64,000 nucleotides of DNA from Winogradskyella wandonensis. GTDB lineage: Bacteria; Bacteroidota; Bacteroidia; Flavobacteriales; Flavobacteriaceae. The stretch spans positions 124,001 to 188,000 of the forward strand of contig NZ_SMGI01000003.1 of the NCBI RefSeq assembly GCF_004346845.1, written 5' to 3'. The notes beneath the pieces are model-generated. The model saw only the letters and a list, made by a program, of their open reading frames with translations. It did no database searches and was not told the origin of the DNA. Shown piece by piece: positions 57,453-63,673 of the stretch (position 1 is its first letter; every line of letters starts with the position of its first letter). The position numbers and the translations under genes are program-made.

Positions 57453-58646
57453 TTATTTATTAATTTTTTTGATTGAATCCTCGTGTGTGTAGATGATGCC
57501 ATGTACAATATCGAAGTAGATATCTCCAGACAATGCTTCGCCTGGATGTGGGTCTTTGGTCATCATGGTATATTTTTCTCCTGTTTTTGTAGGCTGAAGG
57601 TTTGCTACAAAATTCTGACCAATTATATTCTTAGTGTTATTTCCAATGACTTTCATACTATGATTTGTCTTTGGATAGAATAAATGGATTTTGGAATACT
57701 CAGAAAACAAACCGAAATGGTCAAAATCTTTAGACCAATTGTAAAACCAATATTCGCTATTAAAATCCGTGATTTTTGTTTGTTTGCCAATTTCACCGAT
57801 TTCAATTTTTGAAAATTCGGATTTGATTTCTGTTTGCGAAATAGACGCTATATTAGAATTGTAGACACTTTTCAGATTATACGTACCTCCTAAAATGCGT
57901 TCTGCATCAAAAGATAGCACGTTGTTTAGCTTTATGTTATTGTATAAATTCCTTAACTCTTCTACATTCAATTTTCCTTTGGTTTGGCTAATTGATAATT
58001 CGTTTTGTATTTCTCCCCCGAAGTATATGTTTGAATTTTCAGCATTAATATTCAATTTAATAAATGGTGGTATTTTAATAATAAACTTACTCTTCATGAT
58101 ATCAACTCGTTTACTACTTACTTCATTAAACATATTATTTCTATCATTTCCTTTAAAGAAGGTAAACTGTTGTAAAAACTGCTCCGGATTTGGTGTTCTA
58201 TTTCTTTGGATAACTTTTAATAAAGAATCTTTAGAAATTCTAACAACACTATCATTATCCGTTTTGGTTTTAATAGATGTGTTACTTGGTTTAAAAAGCA
58301 GTTTATCCTCATTGTCCACTGAATAATTAATGAGTTGTATTGCTTTGTTACTATTAACCTCAAGAGTTATATGATTATTGGATTGCGCCGTTTTAATACT
58401 AATCTTTTCCAAAGTCTCTGCTATCTGCTTTCTTGAATACCCTTTAAACTCCAAGGCATAATTTAAATGTAGTTTACCATCATTAGACTCCTCTATTCTT
58501 ACAGTAGTATTTTTAAAATTGAAAACCACGCTCATATCTTTTGTTGCAGGAATGGATTTCTTAAGAATATTCCTGTAGTCAAAGTCTTGACTATATAAGC
58601 TTACCGACGTGATGAATATCAGTAAGATTGTAAATAGATTTCTCAT
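57453..58646 (-). CDS. exported protein of unknown function, possibly DUF4097-like beta-helix
   Basis: This 397-residue protein has a signal peptide (RNLFTILLIFITSVSLYSQ). It then has repeated short strands such as VVFNFKNTTVRIEESNDGKLHLNYAL, FIIKIPPFIKLNINAENSNIYFGGEI, KGKLNVEELRNLYNNIKLNN and SKIEIGEIGKQTKITDFNSEYWFYN, the look of a short adhesin-like beta-helix of the DUF4097 kind. That is pattern inference only. It sits downstream of an ECF sigma and a membrane protein, with a 4-base overlap of start and stop, a common Bacteroidota layout. Confidence 0.7.
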   Translation of the reverse strand: MRNLFTILLIFITSVSLYSQDFDYRNILKKSIPATKDMSVVFNFKNTTVRIEESNDGKLHLNYALEFKGYSRKQIAETLEKISIKTAQSNNHITLEVNSNKAIQLINYSVDNEDKLLFKPSNTSIKTKTDNDSVVRISKDSLLKVIQRNRTPNPEQFLQQFTFFKGNDRNNMFNEVSSKRVDIMKSKFIIKIPPFIKLNINAENSNIYFGGEIQNELSISQTKGKLNVEELRNLYNNIKLNNVLSFDAERILGGTYNLKSVYNSNIASISQTEIKSEFSKIEIGEIGKQTKITDFNSEYWFYNWSKDFDHFGLFSEYSKIHLFYPKTNHSMKVIGNNTKNIIGQNFVANLQPTKTGEKYTMMTKDPHPGEALSGDIYFDIVHGIIYTHEDSIKKINK

Positions 58647-59152
58647 AATGTTCGTGGTTTTTGATTTAATATCTTGATGTGCTCTTGGATGTCTTTAAGC
58701 AATTGTAAACGTGTTTGTAGATTTTGTATTAGCATTTCTACAACAGCTATATTGTTAGTATCATTTTTAAATGCTATTGAAATCTCTTTGTAATCTTCAT
58801 CCAAATCCAATAGACGTTTTTCGTAGCGTTTTACCAAAACCGAATCTGTAGCAATAGCTTTAAAATTTTGCCATTCAGTTTCAATATTTGCTAGATATTC
58901 TTTTTCTACTTGGGCAACTTGCGCTACGAGCGGATTCTCTTCTGCTTCTGGTTTTTGCAAAGTAAAAAAGCCTACGGTTAGCGCAATTACAACCACTGCT
59001 GCTATTCGCAGAAATAGATAATTAGATTTGTTAGACTCATTAGATTTTTCAGAATTTAACTTGGCTAAAAATTCTTCGCGATGGTTTCTTGGTAACTCGT
59101 GTTTGGTGTCTTCAACCTCATTTTTAAATAATTCTCTAATATCTCGCTTCAT
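58643..59152 (-). CDS. single-pass membrane protein, putative anti-sigma factor
   Basis: This 169-residue protein has a charged cytoplasmic N-terminus (residues 1-44, with HREEFLAKLNSEK), one transmembrane helix (YLFLRIAAVVVIALTVGFFTL, ~45-65) and a helical extracytoplasmic domain with EKEYLANIETEWQNFKAIA and VEMLIQNLQTRLQLLKDIQEHI. It overlaps the ECF sigma gene by 17 bases and the next gene by 4. Position and topology suggest it controls the sigma factor, but there is no zinc-binding anti-sigma motif. Confidence 0.78.
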   Translation of the reverse strand: MKRDIRELFKNEVEDTKHELPRNHREEFLAKLNSEKSNESNKSNYLFLRIAAVVVIALTVGFFTLQKPEAEENPLVAQVAQVEKEYLANIETEWQNFKAIATDSVLVKRYEKRLLDLDEDYKEISIAFKNDTNNIAVVEMLIQNLQTRLQLLKDIQEHIKILNQKPRTL

Positions 59153-59684
59153 TATATCTTGTTTTAAGTAGTTCTTGTAATTGTTGTTTGGCGCGTCGTA
59201 GCTGTGTTCTAGATGTTTTTATGTTGATATCCAAAATCTCTGAAATTTCTTCGTGGTCGTAACCATCAATCAAGTAAAGTCTAATGACTAATCGGTATTT
59301 TTCTGGCAATTGAGTAATAGCTTCAACAATTTGCGTTTTAGTTATTGAGGTTTCAAACTGCCAATTGCTATCATCTACAATTTGAAGATTATCGGTTTCT
59401 AAAGATTCCGTTTCAAATTTATTTTTTCTAATGGTATCAATACATTGGTTAATGATTATTCGTTTTAACCAAACACCAAATGTTGATGTCTCCGTATAAT
59501 TTTCAATATTAAAAAACGCCTTCAAAAAGCCTTCTTGCATGGCGTCTTTAGCATCTTCCTTATTATTTAAATATCTACACGCTACATTATACATAGCCTC
59601 ACAATAACTATCATACACTTGCATCTGTGCTTTTTGGTTGCCGCGTTTGCAAGCATTGATAAGTTGATTGGTTTTGTTTTGCAT
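59136..59684 (-). CDS. ECF RNA polymerase sigma factor
   Basis: This 182-residue sigma-70 family ECF factor has region 2 with KRGNQKAQMQVYDSYCEAMYNVACRYL, DAKDAMQEGFLKAFFN and TFGVWLKRIIINQCIDTIRK (residues ~12-90). Region 4 has ITQLPEKYRLVIRLYLIDGYDHEEISEILDINIKTSRTQLRRAKQQLQELL (~118-170). Starting ATG at 59684 gives a normal N-terminus. An ECF-type promoter (TGAAAC, 16 bp, CGTT) lies 28-54 bases upstream, suggesting autoregulation of the four-gene operon. Confidence 0.93.
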   Translation of the reverse strand: MQNKTNQLINACKRGNQKAQMQVYDSYCEAMYNVACRYLNNKEDAKDAMQEGFLKAFFNIENYTETSTFGVWLKRIIINQCIDTIRKNKFETESLETDNLQIVDDSNWQFETSITKTQIVEAITQLPEKYRLVIRLYLIDGYDHEEISEILDINIKTSRTQLRRAKQQLQELLKTRYNEARY

Positions 59685-59806: not shown

Positions 59807-61132
59807 ATGAGCAAAGACTACAATAATCCTGCTTTTAAGAAACTTTTAGAAAAATTACAAGAAGAAAGTTGGCAGTTAGAACTTCTAATATCTGGTTTTG
59901 CAATTTTTGGGCTATTTACAGCTTATGAGCCTATAAATATTTACCTAAAAGAATCCATAGCTACGGGCCAAGACTACAAAAGGGCAGTTTTTACTGTCAC
60001 TAAAATTTCTTGCATAATATTAACGTTTAGCTTATTGGTCCATGTATTATTAAGAGGTTTATGGATTGGCGCTCTGGGCTTACGTTACGTTTCTGGCGAT
60101 ATAGATTACGAAGAACTAAATTACGGGCAAAAGTTTACAAAGTATCTTAAGAAAAGAGTTGGCTCTTTTGATAAATACATTGCCACATTAGAGAATTATT
60201 GCAGTATTATTTTTGCTGCTTCTTTTCTTTTAATTTTCTATGTCTTGGCTATGACTTTTATAATAATAACCATTGGTTTTACTGGTAATAGTATTATAAG
60301 TAGCGATTGGCTACCCGAGTGGCTTGCCCTAGGTTTTGGAATTCCGTTTATGATATTTATTGTCATAGGCATGTTTTTAACGTTTATTGATTTTGTAACA
60401 CAAGGTTTTTTGAAGAAAAAGAAGTGGTTGGCAAAAATCTACTTTCCGTTTTATTGGGTGTTTAGTTTTATTACGCTATCCTTTTTATATCGTCCTATTG
60501 TTTACAACTTTTTAGACAACAAATTTGGAAGACGTTTTAGCCTACTGCTATTTCCGCTATTTATTGGTATTGCTATTTCCTTTTCACTTCACTATAATTT
60601 TTCAAATTACTTTAGTCCGGAAAACAACTCCAACGAATACATCTCGAATAGAGAAAATTATGAAGATTTATTAGATGAAAAATTAGGATTTATAGACCAC
60701 ATCACTATTCAATCCAAAGTTGTAAAAGAGAATTACATTAAAGTTTTTGTACCTTATTCTGAAACTATTGAAAATCGAATTTTTTATTTCAACGAAGGCT
60801 TAAAGCCTGAAAAAGATATCCGTGGACTAGACACAGACGTTATTAATATTAATGTTAGTGATAGAAAAATAAACAGAGACAGCCTTAGACGTGAATATTT
60901 AACCACGTTTAACAAAATATATTACACCAAAATAGATTCCGTTGTTGTAAAATCTGATTTTATAGTTAGTCATACCAAAAAAGGTACTCTTGGTTTTGAA
61001 ACATTTTTATCCACAAAAAATTTATCAGACGGCAAGCATACTCTAGAGTTTAAGAGAAAAGGACTAAATAAAGAAAAGGACACCTTATATTACAGTATTG
61101 CCAAAATCCCGTTTTGGTATTATCCAGACTAA
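59807..61132 (+). CDS. polytopic membrane protein of unknown function
   Basis: This 441-residue protein has a cytoplasmic N-terminus (KLLEKLQEESWQLELLISGFAIFGLF) followed by about five or six transmembrane helices in the first 260 residues. Between helices is a conserved-looking RGLWIGALGLRYVSGDIDYEELNYGQKFTKYLKKRVGSFDKYI stretch. The last ~180 residues are a soluble domain with NYFSPENNSN and an FWYYPD end. No family is recognised. It is divergent from the ECF operon at 59684 (122 bp) and overlaps the convergent gene at 61129 by 4 bases. Confidence 0.8.
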   Translation: MSKDYNNPAFKKLLEKLQEESWQLELLISGFAIFGLFTAYEPINIYLKESIATGQDYKRAVFTVTKISCIILTFSLLVHVLLRGLWIGALGLRYVSGDIDYEELNYGQKFTKYLKKRVGSFDKYIATLENYCSIIFAASFLLIFYVLAMTFIIITIGFTGNSIISSDWLPEWLALGFGIPFMIFIVIGMFLTFIDFVTQGFLKKKKWLAKIYFPFYWVFSFITLSFLYRPIVYNFLDNKFGRRFSLLLFPLFIGIAISFSLHYNFSNYFSPENNSNEYISNRENYEDLLDEKLGFIDHITIQSKVVKENYIKVFVPYSETIENRIFYFNEGLKPEKDIRGLDTDVININVSDRKINRDSLRREYLTTFNKIYYTKIDSVVVKSDFIVSHTKKGTLGFETFLSTKNLSDGKHTLEFKRKGLNKEKDTLYYSIAKIPFWYYPD

Positions 61133-61527
61133 AACTGTAATCGTTTATCGACATATGTTTTTAATATTGGAATTTGTAGCCCAATCATTAAAGTAAAAGC
61201 GATTGCCGCATAAATTAATGTCTGCGAGACATTAAAGTCAAAATCTTTTAATGGATTGAAACTTATTTGTGATAAGTTGAGAAGTTCTGATAATCTTGAG
61301 GTTGATTCACTTTTATCTAAAAATGCGTAAATCACAAGGGAAACAAGAGCAAATCCAATAATATACCAAACCCATTTAGAAATTAACGGTTTGTAAACGG
61401 TAGCTTCAGATTTTACATTTAGTTGCTCTAAAACTTGGTTTGTAAAGTCTGATGATGGCTTTTCTAATGCATCATTTGCCATTAATTGGTCTACAAAAAA
61501 TTCTAGTTCTTTATCATTAGGCTCCAT
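61129..61527 (-). CDS. two-pass membrane protein, putative anti-sigma factor
   Basis: This 132-residue protein has an acidic N-terminal segment (NDKELEFFVDQLMANDALEKPSSDFTNQVLEQL, residues ~4-36), a first transmembrane helix (WVWYIIGFALVSLVIYAFL, ~51-69) and a second (TLIYAAIAFTLMIGLQIPIL, ~102-121), then a basic end. Its start overlaps the upstream ECF sigma gene by 11 bases, so the two are translationally coupled. The short N-terminal helix before a membrane anchor is compatible with sigma binding. It lacks the usual zinc or RskA anti-sigma motifs. Confidence 0.75.
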   Translation of the reverse strand: MEPNDKELEFFVDQLMANDALEKPSSDFTNQVLEQLNVKSEATVYKPLISKWVWYIIGFALVSLVIYAFLDKSESTSRLSELLNLSQISFNPLKDFDFNVSQTLIYAAIAFTLMIGLQIPILKTYVDKRLQF

Positions 61528-62095
61528 AACTTCTTGTATTTTCTAGTTTTAAATGCTTTTCTAAAATTACTGCTAATTTTTTTCTAGCTCTAAATAGTTT
61601 CACTTTTATTGTATTGGCTGACACCTCTATAACCTCTGATATTTCATCTAAAGATAACTCTTCAAAATAAAATAGTGTTAATAGATAACTGTCTTCACTA
61701 GGCAACATATTTACACATTGCTTAATCAAGTTAGTTTTTTCAGTCTTAATCATACCTTCTAAAGCATTGTCAATCGTTTCAATTTTATTTATTGTAAACT
61801 CATCTATAGACACATCTTTTAAGTGTTTTTTATTCTTTTTTATAGTATCTAAACAGGTATTATACGTCACCCTATAAATCCATGTAGAGAACTTAGAATC
61901 TCCCTTAAACTTATCTAAAGATTTATATACTTTAACAAAGGCATCTTGCGCCACTTCCTCTGCTTCTTCTCTATTCTTCAACATACGCAACGCTAAAGTA
62001 AAGACCAAGTCTTTATAACGGTCTACCAATTGCCCATAAGCATTATGGTCTCCATCTATGATTAGCGCTATAAGTTGATTGTCGTTAGTGGTCAT
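61517..62095 (-). CDS. ECF RNA polymerase sigma factor
   Basis: This 192-residue sigma factor has region 2 with IIDGDHNAYGQLVDRYKDLVFTLALRML, EEVAQDAFVKVYKSLDKFKGDSKFSTWIYRVTYNTCLDTIKKN (residues ~12-85), and region 4 with NMLPSEDSYLLTLFYFEELSLDEISEVIEVSANTIKVKLFRARKKL (~130-178). It begins with ATG 62095, only 10 bases after a GTCGTC -10 element, so its mRNA should be nearly leaderless. The putative anti-sigma overlaps its end. It shares a bidirectional ECF promoter region with the DUF6249 gene. Confidence 0.94.
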   Translation of the reverse strand: MTTNDNQLIALIIDGDHNAYGQLVDRYKDLVFTLALRMLKNREEAEEVAQDAFVKVYKSLDKFKGDSKFSTWIYRVTYNTCLDTIKKNKKHLKDVSIDEFTINKIETIDNALEGMIKTEKTNLIKQCVNMLPSEDSYLLTLFYFEELSLDEISEVIEVSANTIKVKLFRARKKLAVILEKHLKLENTRSYGA

Positions 62096-62105
62096 TTTTA
62101 TTTAA

Positions 62106-62132
62106 GACGACTATAATCTGAATTAGGTTACA
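62106..62132 (-). promoter_or_regulatory. ECF-type promoter of the sigma gene at 62095 (left arm of mirror pair)
   Basis: On the minus strand TGTAAC (62132-62127), 17 bp, CGTC (62109-62106) are present within TGTAACCT, 13 bp, GTCGTC. This matches the TGTAAC, 17 bp, CGAC/CGTC class known for ECF sigmas such as SigX of Bacillus. The identical element occurs on the opposite strand at 62155-62181. Confidence 0.7.
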
Positions 62133-62154
62133 GAATTAAAAAAAATAAAATTCT

Positions 62155-62181
62155 TGTAACCTCTTTTTAAAACTTGTCGTC
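62155..62181 (+). promoter_or_regulatory. ECF-type promoter of the DUF6249 gene (right arm of mirror pair)
   Basis: TGTAACCT (62155-62162), a 13-bp gap and GTCGTC (62176-62181) repeat exactly the bases and spacing of the element at 62106-62132. It points at the DUF6249 gene, whose ATG is 47 bases further on. Confidence 0.7.
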
Positions 62182-62227
62182 ATAAGCTATGAACAGATTA
62201 AAATTAATCAATTAAAAAACAAACATT

Positions 62228-62599
62228 ATGATAACCAGTTTACTTATCAACAGCTCAGACGATGCGGCAGAATTATTAATCCCTATTAGTTTTTTTCTAG
62301 TCGTCTTTGGAATTATTTACTTGTACTTTTCAACCAGAAACAAAGAACGTTTAGCACTTATAGAAAAAGGTGCAGATGCTAGTATTTTTAATATTGGTAA
62401 ACGCGGCTCATCATGGAAAGTCGTAGTTATTAATTTAGCATTTTTATTAATGGGTATAGGTTTAGGTACTTTTTTAGCTGCACTAATTGATACTTATACC
62501 GATCTTGAAGAAGGCGCCATGGCAGCAGTAATTTTCTTTATGGCTGGTGTAGGACTTTATGTTGGATACTTACAGACCAAAAAAGATTTAGACAATTAA
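62228..62599 (+). CDS. DUF6249 family membrane protein
   Basis: This 123-residue protein has three transmembrane helices (LLIPISFFLVVFGIIYLYF, VVINLAFLLMGIGLGTFLAALI, MAAVIFFMAGVGLYVGYLQ). The loop after the first helix carries RNKERLALIEKGADASIFN, the family hallmark (an E-R-x-A-L-I-E-K-G motif). DUF6249 function is unknown; such proteins often sit next to ECF sigma genes in Bacteroidota. Its promoter matches the ECF-type element of the divergent sigma gene. A strong terminator follows. Confidence 0.88.
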   Translation: MITSLLINSSDDAAELLIPISFFLVVFGIIYLYFSTRNKERLALIEKGADASIFNIGKRGSSWKVVVINLAFLLMGIGLGTFLAALIDTYTDLEEGAMAAVIFFMAGVGLYVGYLQTKKDLDN

Positions 62600-62618
62600 C
62601 AATCAATCAGCCCAATTA

Positions 62619-62653
62619 AAAAGCCGTTATCAAGTACTTTGGTAACGGCTTTT
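62619..62653 (+). terminator. intrinsic terminator after the DUF6249 gene
   Basis: AAAAGCCGTTA (62619-62629) and TAACGGCTTTT (62643-62653) form an 11-bp perfect stem with a 13-base loop, 20 bases after the stop codon. Confidence 0.9.
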
Positions 62654-62680
62654 CTATTTGAAATAATGTATATTAGAACT

Positions 62681-63673
62681 ATGATTAAACATCTCTGCTT
62701 TTTTTCGACAGTCTTTTTAAGCATTCTCCAAAGTCACACGCAAATTTCAATTTTAGATGGAGACTCTAAACTACCAGTTTCTTACGCTTCAATATCTTTT
62801 GGAAATGGTAACGGCATCGTTGCCGATGATGAAGGAATTTTTGTTTTTACAAAAAAACTCTATCCAGATATTGATTCTTTATATATCTCTGCCTTAGGCT
62901 ATAAAGATTTATCGATAAGTACAAAACAATTACAACCTCAGCTTTTTTTATATCCGCAAGCCGATGAGCTAGATGAAGTTGTTATTGGTGTAAAAATTGA
63001 TAAAACTGAAGGTAAAAAATACAAAACCGAAAGTCTTAAACCTTACCTCGATGACGACTACTATAAATGTTGGCTACCAACGATAGAATCTGAGATTGCC
63101 GTGTATTTCCCAAATGAGGATGACAGACTCAAACGTATAGCTAAAGTTAAATTTCCTATTGCTTTAGAATCTAAAGAATGGAAAAACAGAAAGAAAGCTA
63201 ATAAAGAAAAGAAGAAATTCTCTACACTTTTCAAAGTAAATATTTATGAAAATCTTTACGGTAAACCTGGCCGAAATCTAAATACCGAAACTATAGTGTT
63301 TAGAGCTACAGAACAAGATGGCGATTATCACGAGTTAGACATAGAGGAACAAAACATTTTAATACCAGAAGAAGGTGTTTTTATCTCTCTGCAAGTCATT
63401 GGATATACAAACAAAAACGGCAAATTGCTCCCAAATAAGAAATACAAGGAAATAAAAGGGCCACAAGGAACAGTGAAAATACCTACCAATTTTAGACCAT
63501 TACTTCCGTTTACTAATCAAATATCAGAAAATAGAACCTTTGTAAAGCGTGTTTTTATAAACGGAAATAATTGGCAGATGTTTAAAAAAGGAAACGGTTT
63601 TCAGTCTTCTCTTCTTAAAAGTGGACTTAACAATTATGGGATTGGCATAGATTTACACGTGTTTAAAGATTGA
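62681..63673 (+). CDS. CarboxypepD_reg-like domain protein, exported
   Basis: This 330-residue protein has a signal peptide (IKHLCFFSTVFLSILQSHTQ) and an N-terminal carboxypeptidase regulatory-like domain (ISILDGDSKLPVSYASISFGNGNGIVADDEGIF, ISALGYKDLSI) over about residues 21-90. A charged segment with DEVVIGVKIDKTEGKKYKTESLKPYLDDD follows, then a beta-rich C-terminal region. It resembles the N-terminus of the 40451 protein. I use ATG 62681, since it starts the signal peptide; ATG 62666 is in frame too. Function unknown. Confidence 0.78.
   Translation: MIKHLCFFSTVFLSILQSHTQISILDGDSKLPVSYASISFGNGNGIVADDEGIFVFTKKLYPDIDSLYISALGYKDLSISTKQLQPQLFLYPQADELDEVVIGVKIDKTEGKKYKTESLKPYLDDDYYKCWLPTIESEIAVYFPNEDDRLKRIAKVKFPIALESKEWKNRKKANKEKKKFSTLFKVNIYENLYGKPGRNLNTETIVFRATEQDGDYHELDIEEQNILIPEEGVFISLQVIGYTNKNGKLLPNKKYKEIKGPQGTVKIPTNFRPLLPFTNQISENRTFVKRVFINGNNWQMFKKGNGFQSSLLKSGLNNYGIGIDLHVFKD

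Follow-up and report, generated by a model that had tools for sequence, protein, structure and literature searches.

Operons in which an extracytoplasmic function (ECF) sigma factor is transcribed together with its anti-sigma factor from a promoter that it reads itself are textbook systems, exemplified by SigW/RsiW of Bacillus subtilis and RpoE/RseA of Escherichia coli; the regulons of SigW and RpoE are broad. Within the Bacteroidota, the ECF pair CirY/CirZ of Phocaeicola vulgatus has itself and neighbouring genes as its strongest targets (PMC13114119). Here we describe a locus of related kind in a 64,000-nucleotide stretch of DNA from Winogradskyella wandonensis (contig NZ_SMGI01000003.1, positions 124,001 to 188,000; the window), in which two copies of one motif face outwards between an ECF sigma operon and a divergent gene for a membrane protein of family DUF6249. 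From the sequence and its conservation, we consider it very probable that both copies are promoters read by the adjacent sigma factor, which would make the sigma factor, a putative anti-sigma factor and the DUF6249 protein an autoregulated and apparently closed module. Its parts, in window coordinates with lengths in nucleotides (nt) or amino acids (aa), are as follows.

61129-61527, minus strand: putative anti-sigma factor, 132 aa, second gene of the sigma operon, overlapping the sigma gene by 11 nt
61517-62095, minus strand: ECF sigma factor, 192 aa, from Pfam and NCBIfam profiles and a structure match
62106-62132, minus strand: predicted sigma-operon promoter, -35 TGTAACC, 14 nt, GTCGTC (-10 core GTC), then TTA
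62133-62154, no strand: A+T-rich spacer between the two -35 boxes, 22 nt, 91% A+T
62155-62181, plus strand: predicted DUF6249 promoter, same boxes and spacing in the opposite direction, then ATAAGCT
62228-62599, plus strand: DUF6249 membrane protein, 123 aa (PF19762)

The motif pair and the genes it separates

The minus-strand copy, TGTAACCTAATTCAGATTATAGTCGTC, lies at 62132-62106 and the plus-strand copy, TGTAACCTCTTTTTAAAACTTGTCGTC, at 62155-62181, on the strands and at the positions given in the original prediction, which had read both as TGTAAC, 17 bp, CGTC. That reading holds for each copy: TGTAAC-N17-CGTC has exactly two matches in the 64 kb, both of them members of the mirror pair, against a mean of 0.09 in 100 shuffled sequences, none of which had two. 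Genome-wide, the pattern gives five matches and the backwards control also five, so that it is the two copies facing outwards across a single gap that carry the signal, not the pattern alone; the other three genomic matches sit inside open reading frames (ORFs) of at least 100 aa. The pair itself is real and lies beyond chance. A scan for sigma-70 consensus sites gave no signal (12, compared with a shuffle mean of 9.7), and an Rfam search of the region found no RNA family at E <= 0.1.

Pfam profiles bear out the identities originally assigned to the two divergent genes. The sigma factor scores above cut-off for both PF04542 (72.1 bits) and PF08281 (52.5 bits), which represent regions 2 and 4, and reaches 116.5 for TIGR02937 against a cut-off of 42.9. 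With sigma-70 regions 2 and 4 only, in about 190 residues, it has the architecture of an ECF (group 4) sigma factor. Among the best 25 of 102 families no named equivalog (SigW, RpoE, GFO_1088 and others) passes, only the general sigma70-ECF family, and the best match among solved structures is SigW (5wuq, E 2.3e-29). The protein is 95% identical to the sigma factor of Winogradskyella jejuensis, and the window lies close to Winogradskyella. The DUF6249 protein scores 50.4 bits for PF19762, where the curated cut-off is 33. Its structure model is all-helical (predicted local distance difference test, pLDDT, 76.7; predicted template-modelling score, pTM, 0.48), and a fold search with this model returned 48 matches, none at E <= 0.001.

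The membrane-protein gene directly after the sigma gene encodes the putative anti-sigma factor, whose activity we infer. A homologue stands directly after the sigma gene in all 80 of the Flavobacteriaceae loci described below, and a hydrophobic ORF follows within 200 nt in 63 of 63 more distant loci. The structure model shows two long helices at low confidence (pTM 0.26), too poor for a fold search.

Conservation in the Flavobacteriaceae

A search for relatives of the sigma factor found 336; the best 80 of these, all of them used, make up the Flavobacteriaceae set. Every locus has a single [TC]GTAAC-N17-xxTC element in the interval 5-20 nt upstream of the sigma ATG; the distance is 9 nt in 10 loci, 10 nt in 40, 11 nt in 28, and 12 and 13 nt in one each. 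On this side TGTAACC is present in 79 promoters, CGTC in 77 and the complete TGTAACC-N14-GTCGTC in 65. A DUF6249 ORF adjoins the sigma gene in 78 of the 80 loci, and all 78 have an outward copy before it; 66 of these copies lay no more than 220 bp from the sigma ATG, and a wider, looser search found the other 12, among them a CGTAAC variant (L018). In the two loci where no DUF6249 gene is adjacent (L045 and L084) it lies elsewhere in the genome, still headed by TGTAACCT-N13-GTCGTC. When these two relocated copies are included, the DUF6249-side promoters (n=80) have TGTAACC in 79 cases and CGTC in 80.

The original prediction expected the motif to recur at orthologous divergent loci, and the element is indeed found on both the sigma side and the DUF6249 side in all 80 genomes. 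The full form, TGTAACCT-N13-GTCGTC, is retained on 48 of 80 sigma sides and 27 of 80 DUF6249 sides, and the core common to the relatives is TGTAACC-N17-GTC-N2-A, with the A three nt after GTC present in 160 of 160 promoters. The spacing from TGTAACC to CGTC, counted from TGTAAC, is 17 in 153 counts and 14 in 13, with no other value from 12 to 22; we read the counts of 14 as fitting the overlapping CGTCGTC. The distance between the two -35 boxes, in contrast, ranges from 22 to 454 nt over 78 loci and is mostly 29-34 nt.

Co-occurrence and the extent of the regulon

The motif follows the module in its presence and its absence. One genus of 61 genomes is taken as Flavobacterium, from promoter strings identical to those of named Flavobacterium loci. 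DUF6249 and the sigma factor (E <= 1e-40) each occur in 15 of its genomes, and the two sets of 15 are identical. Of these 15 genomes, 14 carry the strict motif TGTAACC-N15-TCGTCHTA, which is absent from the other 46 (three matches for the backwards control), and by coordinates all 26 strict matches adjoin the sigma and DUF6249 genes. The fifteenth genome (G466) carries variants ending in CCGTC and CAGTC. A promoter of the operon's own type thus precedes the operon and is conserved with the sigma factor (80/80 loci; 14/15 against 0/46 genomes), as expected of an autoregulated operon. Among 40 relatives, 25 of the window's genus (itself included) and 15 of other families, the strict motif is found in 14, all of the window's genus, and 20 of 20 matches lie beside the sigma and DUF6249 genes, with one control match. 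The mirror-pair pattern, searched in 395 genomes of the order, matches seven genomes, in all seven at the module, and there is no control match among those shown.

These searches relied on strict patterns or on counts of mismatches and applied no weight matrix. When TGTAACC-N14-GTCGTC was allowed up to two mismatches, this genome gave 38 places, compared with 61 in the control. Of 29 other near-matches examined, 28 fall within ORFs of 100 aa or longer, and no ORF follows the remaining one; the check left out eight two-mismatch places and assigned ORF cover mechanically, and for the L087 near-match the covering ORF may begin too early, an ATG lying 1 nt after the site. A wider regulon, as far as a pattern can define it, was therefore rejected, there being no excess over control and almost all near-matches falling in ORFs. 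The recognisable regulon apparently consists of the two module promoters, and the module would then be closed.

Distribution and variation across the Bacteroidota

Of 395 Bacteroidota genomes, 85 contain a match to the DUF6249 profile (89 rows). After removal of a fragment with a stop, two second gene halves and two earlier loci (L173, L175), 84 loci were examined. An ECF sigma gene, at E < 1e-20 in every case, shares the same short stretch in 83 of them, divergently in 72 and co-directionally in 11; L261 is the only exception. In the co-directional loci DUF6249 comes first in 11 of 11 and no pattern precedes the sigma gene (0/11), as predicted if one promoter served both genes. The distant set comprises 63 loci, including two (L220, L221) of the window's own family, and 52 of the 63 are divergent. 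The pattern [TCG][GC][TAC]AAC[CT]-N16-18-GTC occurs on the sigma side in 41 of these 52, on the DUF6249 side in 41 and on both in 38; in 40 shuffle rounds the mean was 0.4 per side and the maximum 3, and backwards sequences gave 1 and 0. Later inspection added four loci (L219, L224, L235, L252) in which the -10 GTC is replaced on both promoters (GCATC or TCATC; GCATAT) and two (L245, L280) with TGAAACA on both sides.

The boxes of the two promoters vary from lineage to lineage but are usually alike at any one locus. A comparison of the two sides in the 38 pairs found identical letters at 259 of 266 positions of the -35 7-mers, where 5000 permutations averaged 242 and never exceeded 252, and at 70 of 114 positions in the three nt preceding GTC (permutation mean 34, maximum 52). 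Mapped onto the sigma tree, the identity of the third -35 base can be explained by as few as seven changes over four states, and there is one large TGAAACC-type branch. At residue 165 of the sigma factor all 80 Flavobacteriaceae have V, as do 32 of the 34 distant loci with TGTAACC, and 12 of the 13 loci with TGAAACC have T, A or N. Because the tree shows essentially one large switch, this residue is only a lead.

In two genomes the sigma/DUF6249 module is present twice, and the two modules differ in promoter form (L246 and L267 in G735; L226 and L282 in G644). The family also extends beyond the Bacteroidota: in the control genomes DUF6249 matches occur in Caulobacter, Bacteroides ihuae and Haloferax, above cut-off in two.

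Predicted start sites and leaders

In E. coli, the spacing of sigma-E promoters puts +1 at the 10th nt after the C of CGTC. This spacing predicts the following start sites in the window.

62096, minus strand: predicted sigma mRNA start, 1 nt before the ATG
62191, plus strand: predicted DUF6249 mRNA start, giving a leader of 37 nt

The 10th nt after CGTC is a purine in 96% of sigma-side and 95% of DUF6249-side promoters (80 loci each), the sigma-side signal being weakened by the A-rich approach to the ATG. Given the same spacing, the sigma mRNA would start 0-4 nt before the ATG in 80 of 80 loci. The sigma mRNA is thus predicted to be leaderless because the promoter lies only 9-13 nt from the ATG; the nearest alternative start codon in frame lies 12-31 codons into the gene. 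A sigma-A promoter (-33/-7) occurs within 250 bp upstream of the sigma gene in one of the 80 loci, and not in the window. The leaderless form is not universal: of the 38 distant pairs, 30 have GTC no more than 17 nt from the ATG, and in the remaining eight the two are 23-70 nt apart. Leaderless mRNAs are reported at 5.5% in Flavobacterium psychrophilum (PMC9723704) and 5' untranslated regions shorter than 10 nt at about 3.7% in Bacteroides thetaiotaomicron (PMC7366714). The conserved leaderless sigma mRNA predicted here would thus occur in a phylum where such messages are reported to be uncommon.

The DUF6249 leader (62182-62227 in the window, and the same stretch in relatives) is strongly conserved, reading ATAAGCTATGAACAC...TTAATCAATTAAAAAC, and has no Rfam match. 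The spacer of the DUF6249-side promoter has a conserved run of A (positions 15-18, 85-91% A) that is lacking on the sigma side. A short ORF noticed by eye in this leader, with its ATG 7 nt after GTCGTC, was dropped, the ATG being lost in relatives such as L016. In L134 and L199 (genome G011) the DUF6249 promoter and its gene are about 200-300 bp further apart than usual, and an ATG immediately follows the leader; the DUF6249 transcript there possibly includes an extra small gene.

Neighbouring features

62612-62662, plus strand: hairpin after DUF6249, likely terminator (-20.7 kcal/mol, z -7.4)

This hairpin is absent from the list of a simple terminator scan. Beyond it, on the same strand as DUF6249, a gene at 62639-63673 has a weak CarbopepD_reg_2 match, below cut-off; a homologue follows DUF6249 in 18 of the 42 loci with an ORF there. 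A second ECF sigma gene (59136-59684), separated from the first sigma operon by some 1.8 kb, is the first of three consecutive minus-strand genes at 57453-59684.

A proposed mechanism and its alternatives

How might such a module work? In the resting state a membrane-bound anti-sigma factor would hold the sigma factor, until some signal released it. RNA polymerase with the freed sigma factor would then transcribe the sigma/anti-sigma operon, providing both positive feedback and its own brake, and the same sigma factor would drive DUF6249 in the opposite direction as the sole other output. The sigma mRNA would begin within a few nt of its AUG, and the DUF6249 mRNA would carry a leader of about 37 nt. 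The central proposal of the original prediction, that the sigma factor drives its own operon and DUF6249 through the two promoters, gains support from their conservation and co-occurrence; the autoregulation is what we infer from them.

Several observations weigh against this interpretation. The putative anti-sigma factor matches no Pfam or NCBIfam family and so has no recognised anti-sigma domain. In only 3 of the 11 co-directional loci does the pattern precede DUF6249, and 8 of the 52 distant divergent loci have no matched pair. The permutations used for the within-locus agreement ignore relatedness, and the relaxed motif is not enriched in this genome. At the sigma gene, 16 of 80 loci have an upstream in-frame start codon that a longer transcript could use, and 14 of 80 an isolated sigma-A -7 box in the 250 bp upstream, which the window lacks.

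Could the pair instead be a single inverted-repeat operator for a dimeric or tetrameric regulator? The copies are inverted and mostly 29-34 nt apart, as such a site would require. The gap between them, however, varies from 22 to 454 nt, each copy holds its place and direction before its own gene, and two genomes have the copies at separate sites; the operator was rejected on the variable gap and the separated copies, and we regard it as extremely improbable. Two promoters are preferred because the box spacing is fixed, the gap is free and the copies survive separation of the genes. These promoters might be read by another ECF sigma factor, with the adjacent one merely a target in a cascade. 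Genomes contain several ECF sigma factors, one of them 2 kb away in the window, and ECF regulons may overlap (PMC9723704). The motif nevertheless tracks the presence of the sigma factor and DUF6249, and both promoters vary with the lineage of the adjacent sigma factor, which makes a cascade improbable; cross-talk by a second sigma factor at the module promoters is possible.

If the adjacent sigma factor does read both promoters, it may also drive a wider regulon through weaker sites that our pattern searches missed. In F. psychrophilum the CGT-box motif SM6 heads genes of the type IX secretion system (T9SS), a band-7 gene and others, besides one sigma/anti-sigma pair (PMC9723704). Strict matches lie solely at the module, however, in both Flavobacterium and the relatives (26/26 and 20/20), and the near-matches examined in this genome lie inside ORFs or, in one case, have none after them, so that additional targets appear unlikely, though still worth considering. 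DUF6249 may be an ordinary effector, for example in envelope protection, since ECF regulons usually contain effectors; CirY most strongly induces itself, two neighbours and a Spy chaperone (PMC13114119). If DUF6249 were an effector, it should more often be controlled by other means, whereas an ECF sigma gene accompanies DUF6249 at 83 of 84 loci, which is only suggestive, and we give the effector role slightly less than an even chance. Because DUF6249 is rarely found away from an ECF sigma gene, it is somewhat more likely to be a dedicated partner in the switch, acting in membrane feedback or sensing, than a general effector.

More tentatively, and short of an even chance in our judgement, DUF6249 may be the third component of an ancient closed switch, whose sigma factor makes only itself, its brake and DUF6249, and whose sigma factor and promoters have changed together across the Bacteroidota. 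If so, the separate sigma/promoter pairs of the module would constitute a natural series, and the sigma mRNA would be leaderless in many of them. The pairs with lineage-specific -35 and -10 boxes should be useful for tracing changes in ECF specificity, and DUF6249, an unstudied family, gains a first functional context from the ECF sigma factor beside it.

Comparison with known systems

Autoregulation by ECF sigma factors is already known; the mirror-promoter module linked to DUF6249 appears new to the literature searched. We found no description of a sigma/anti-sigma/DUF6249 module there, in a search that did not extend to many subscription papers, and the ECF reclassification may list DUF6249 as the neighbour of one of its groups; a full-text search for DUF6249 returned a single paper, on plant kinases. 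We place the module within the known autoregulated ECF operons because such operons are textbook and the CirY regulon is likewise centred on itself and its neighbours. Like SigW/RsiW and RpoE/RseA, it has a promoter of its own type before the ECF operon and a membrane-protein gene after the sigma gene. It differs in having two promoters where those systems have broad regulons, and in a putative anti-sigma factor that belongs to no known family.

SigP of Porphyromonas gingivalis is also a Bacteroidota ECF sigma factor; it is controlled by PorXY and its reported motif is unlike that of the module (PMC4800418). CirY/CirZ differs in targeting spy and two downstream envelope genes, and the accessible part of that report mentions neither DUF6249 nor a mirror promoter (PMC13114119). 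A possible precedent for a leaderless sigma mRNA transcribed by its own product is sigE of Mycobacterium tuberculosis, an ECF sigma gene with a leaderless mRNA, whose leaderless P2 promoter is read by SigE itself (PMC10027907), although two reports disagree on which sigE promoter yields this mRNA (PMC10027907, PMC4921905). The gene differs from the module in belonging to another phylum and in having several promoters (PMC10027907, PMC4921905). The SM6 motif of F. psychrophilum, from the same family, shares with the module a CGT -10 box and one sigma/anti-sigma operon among its targets, and differs in reaching further, to T9SS and band-7 genes (PMC9723704).
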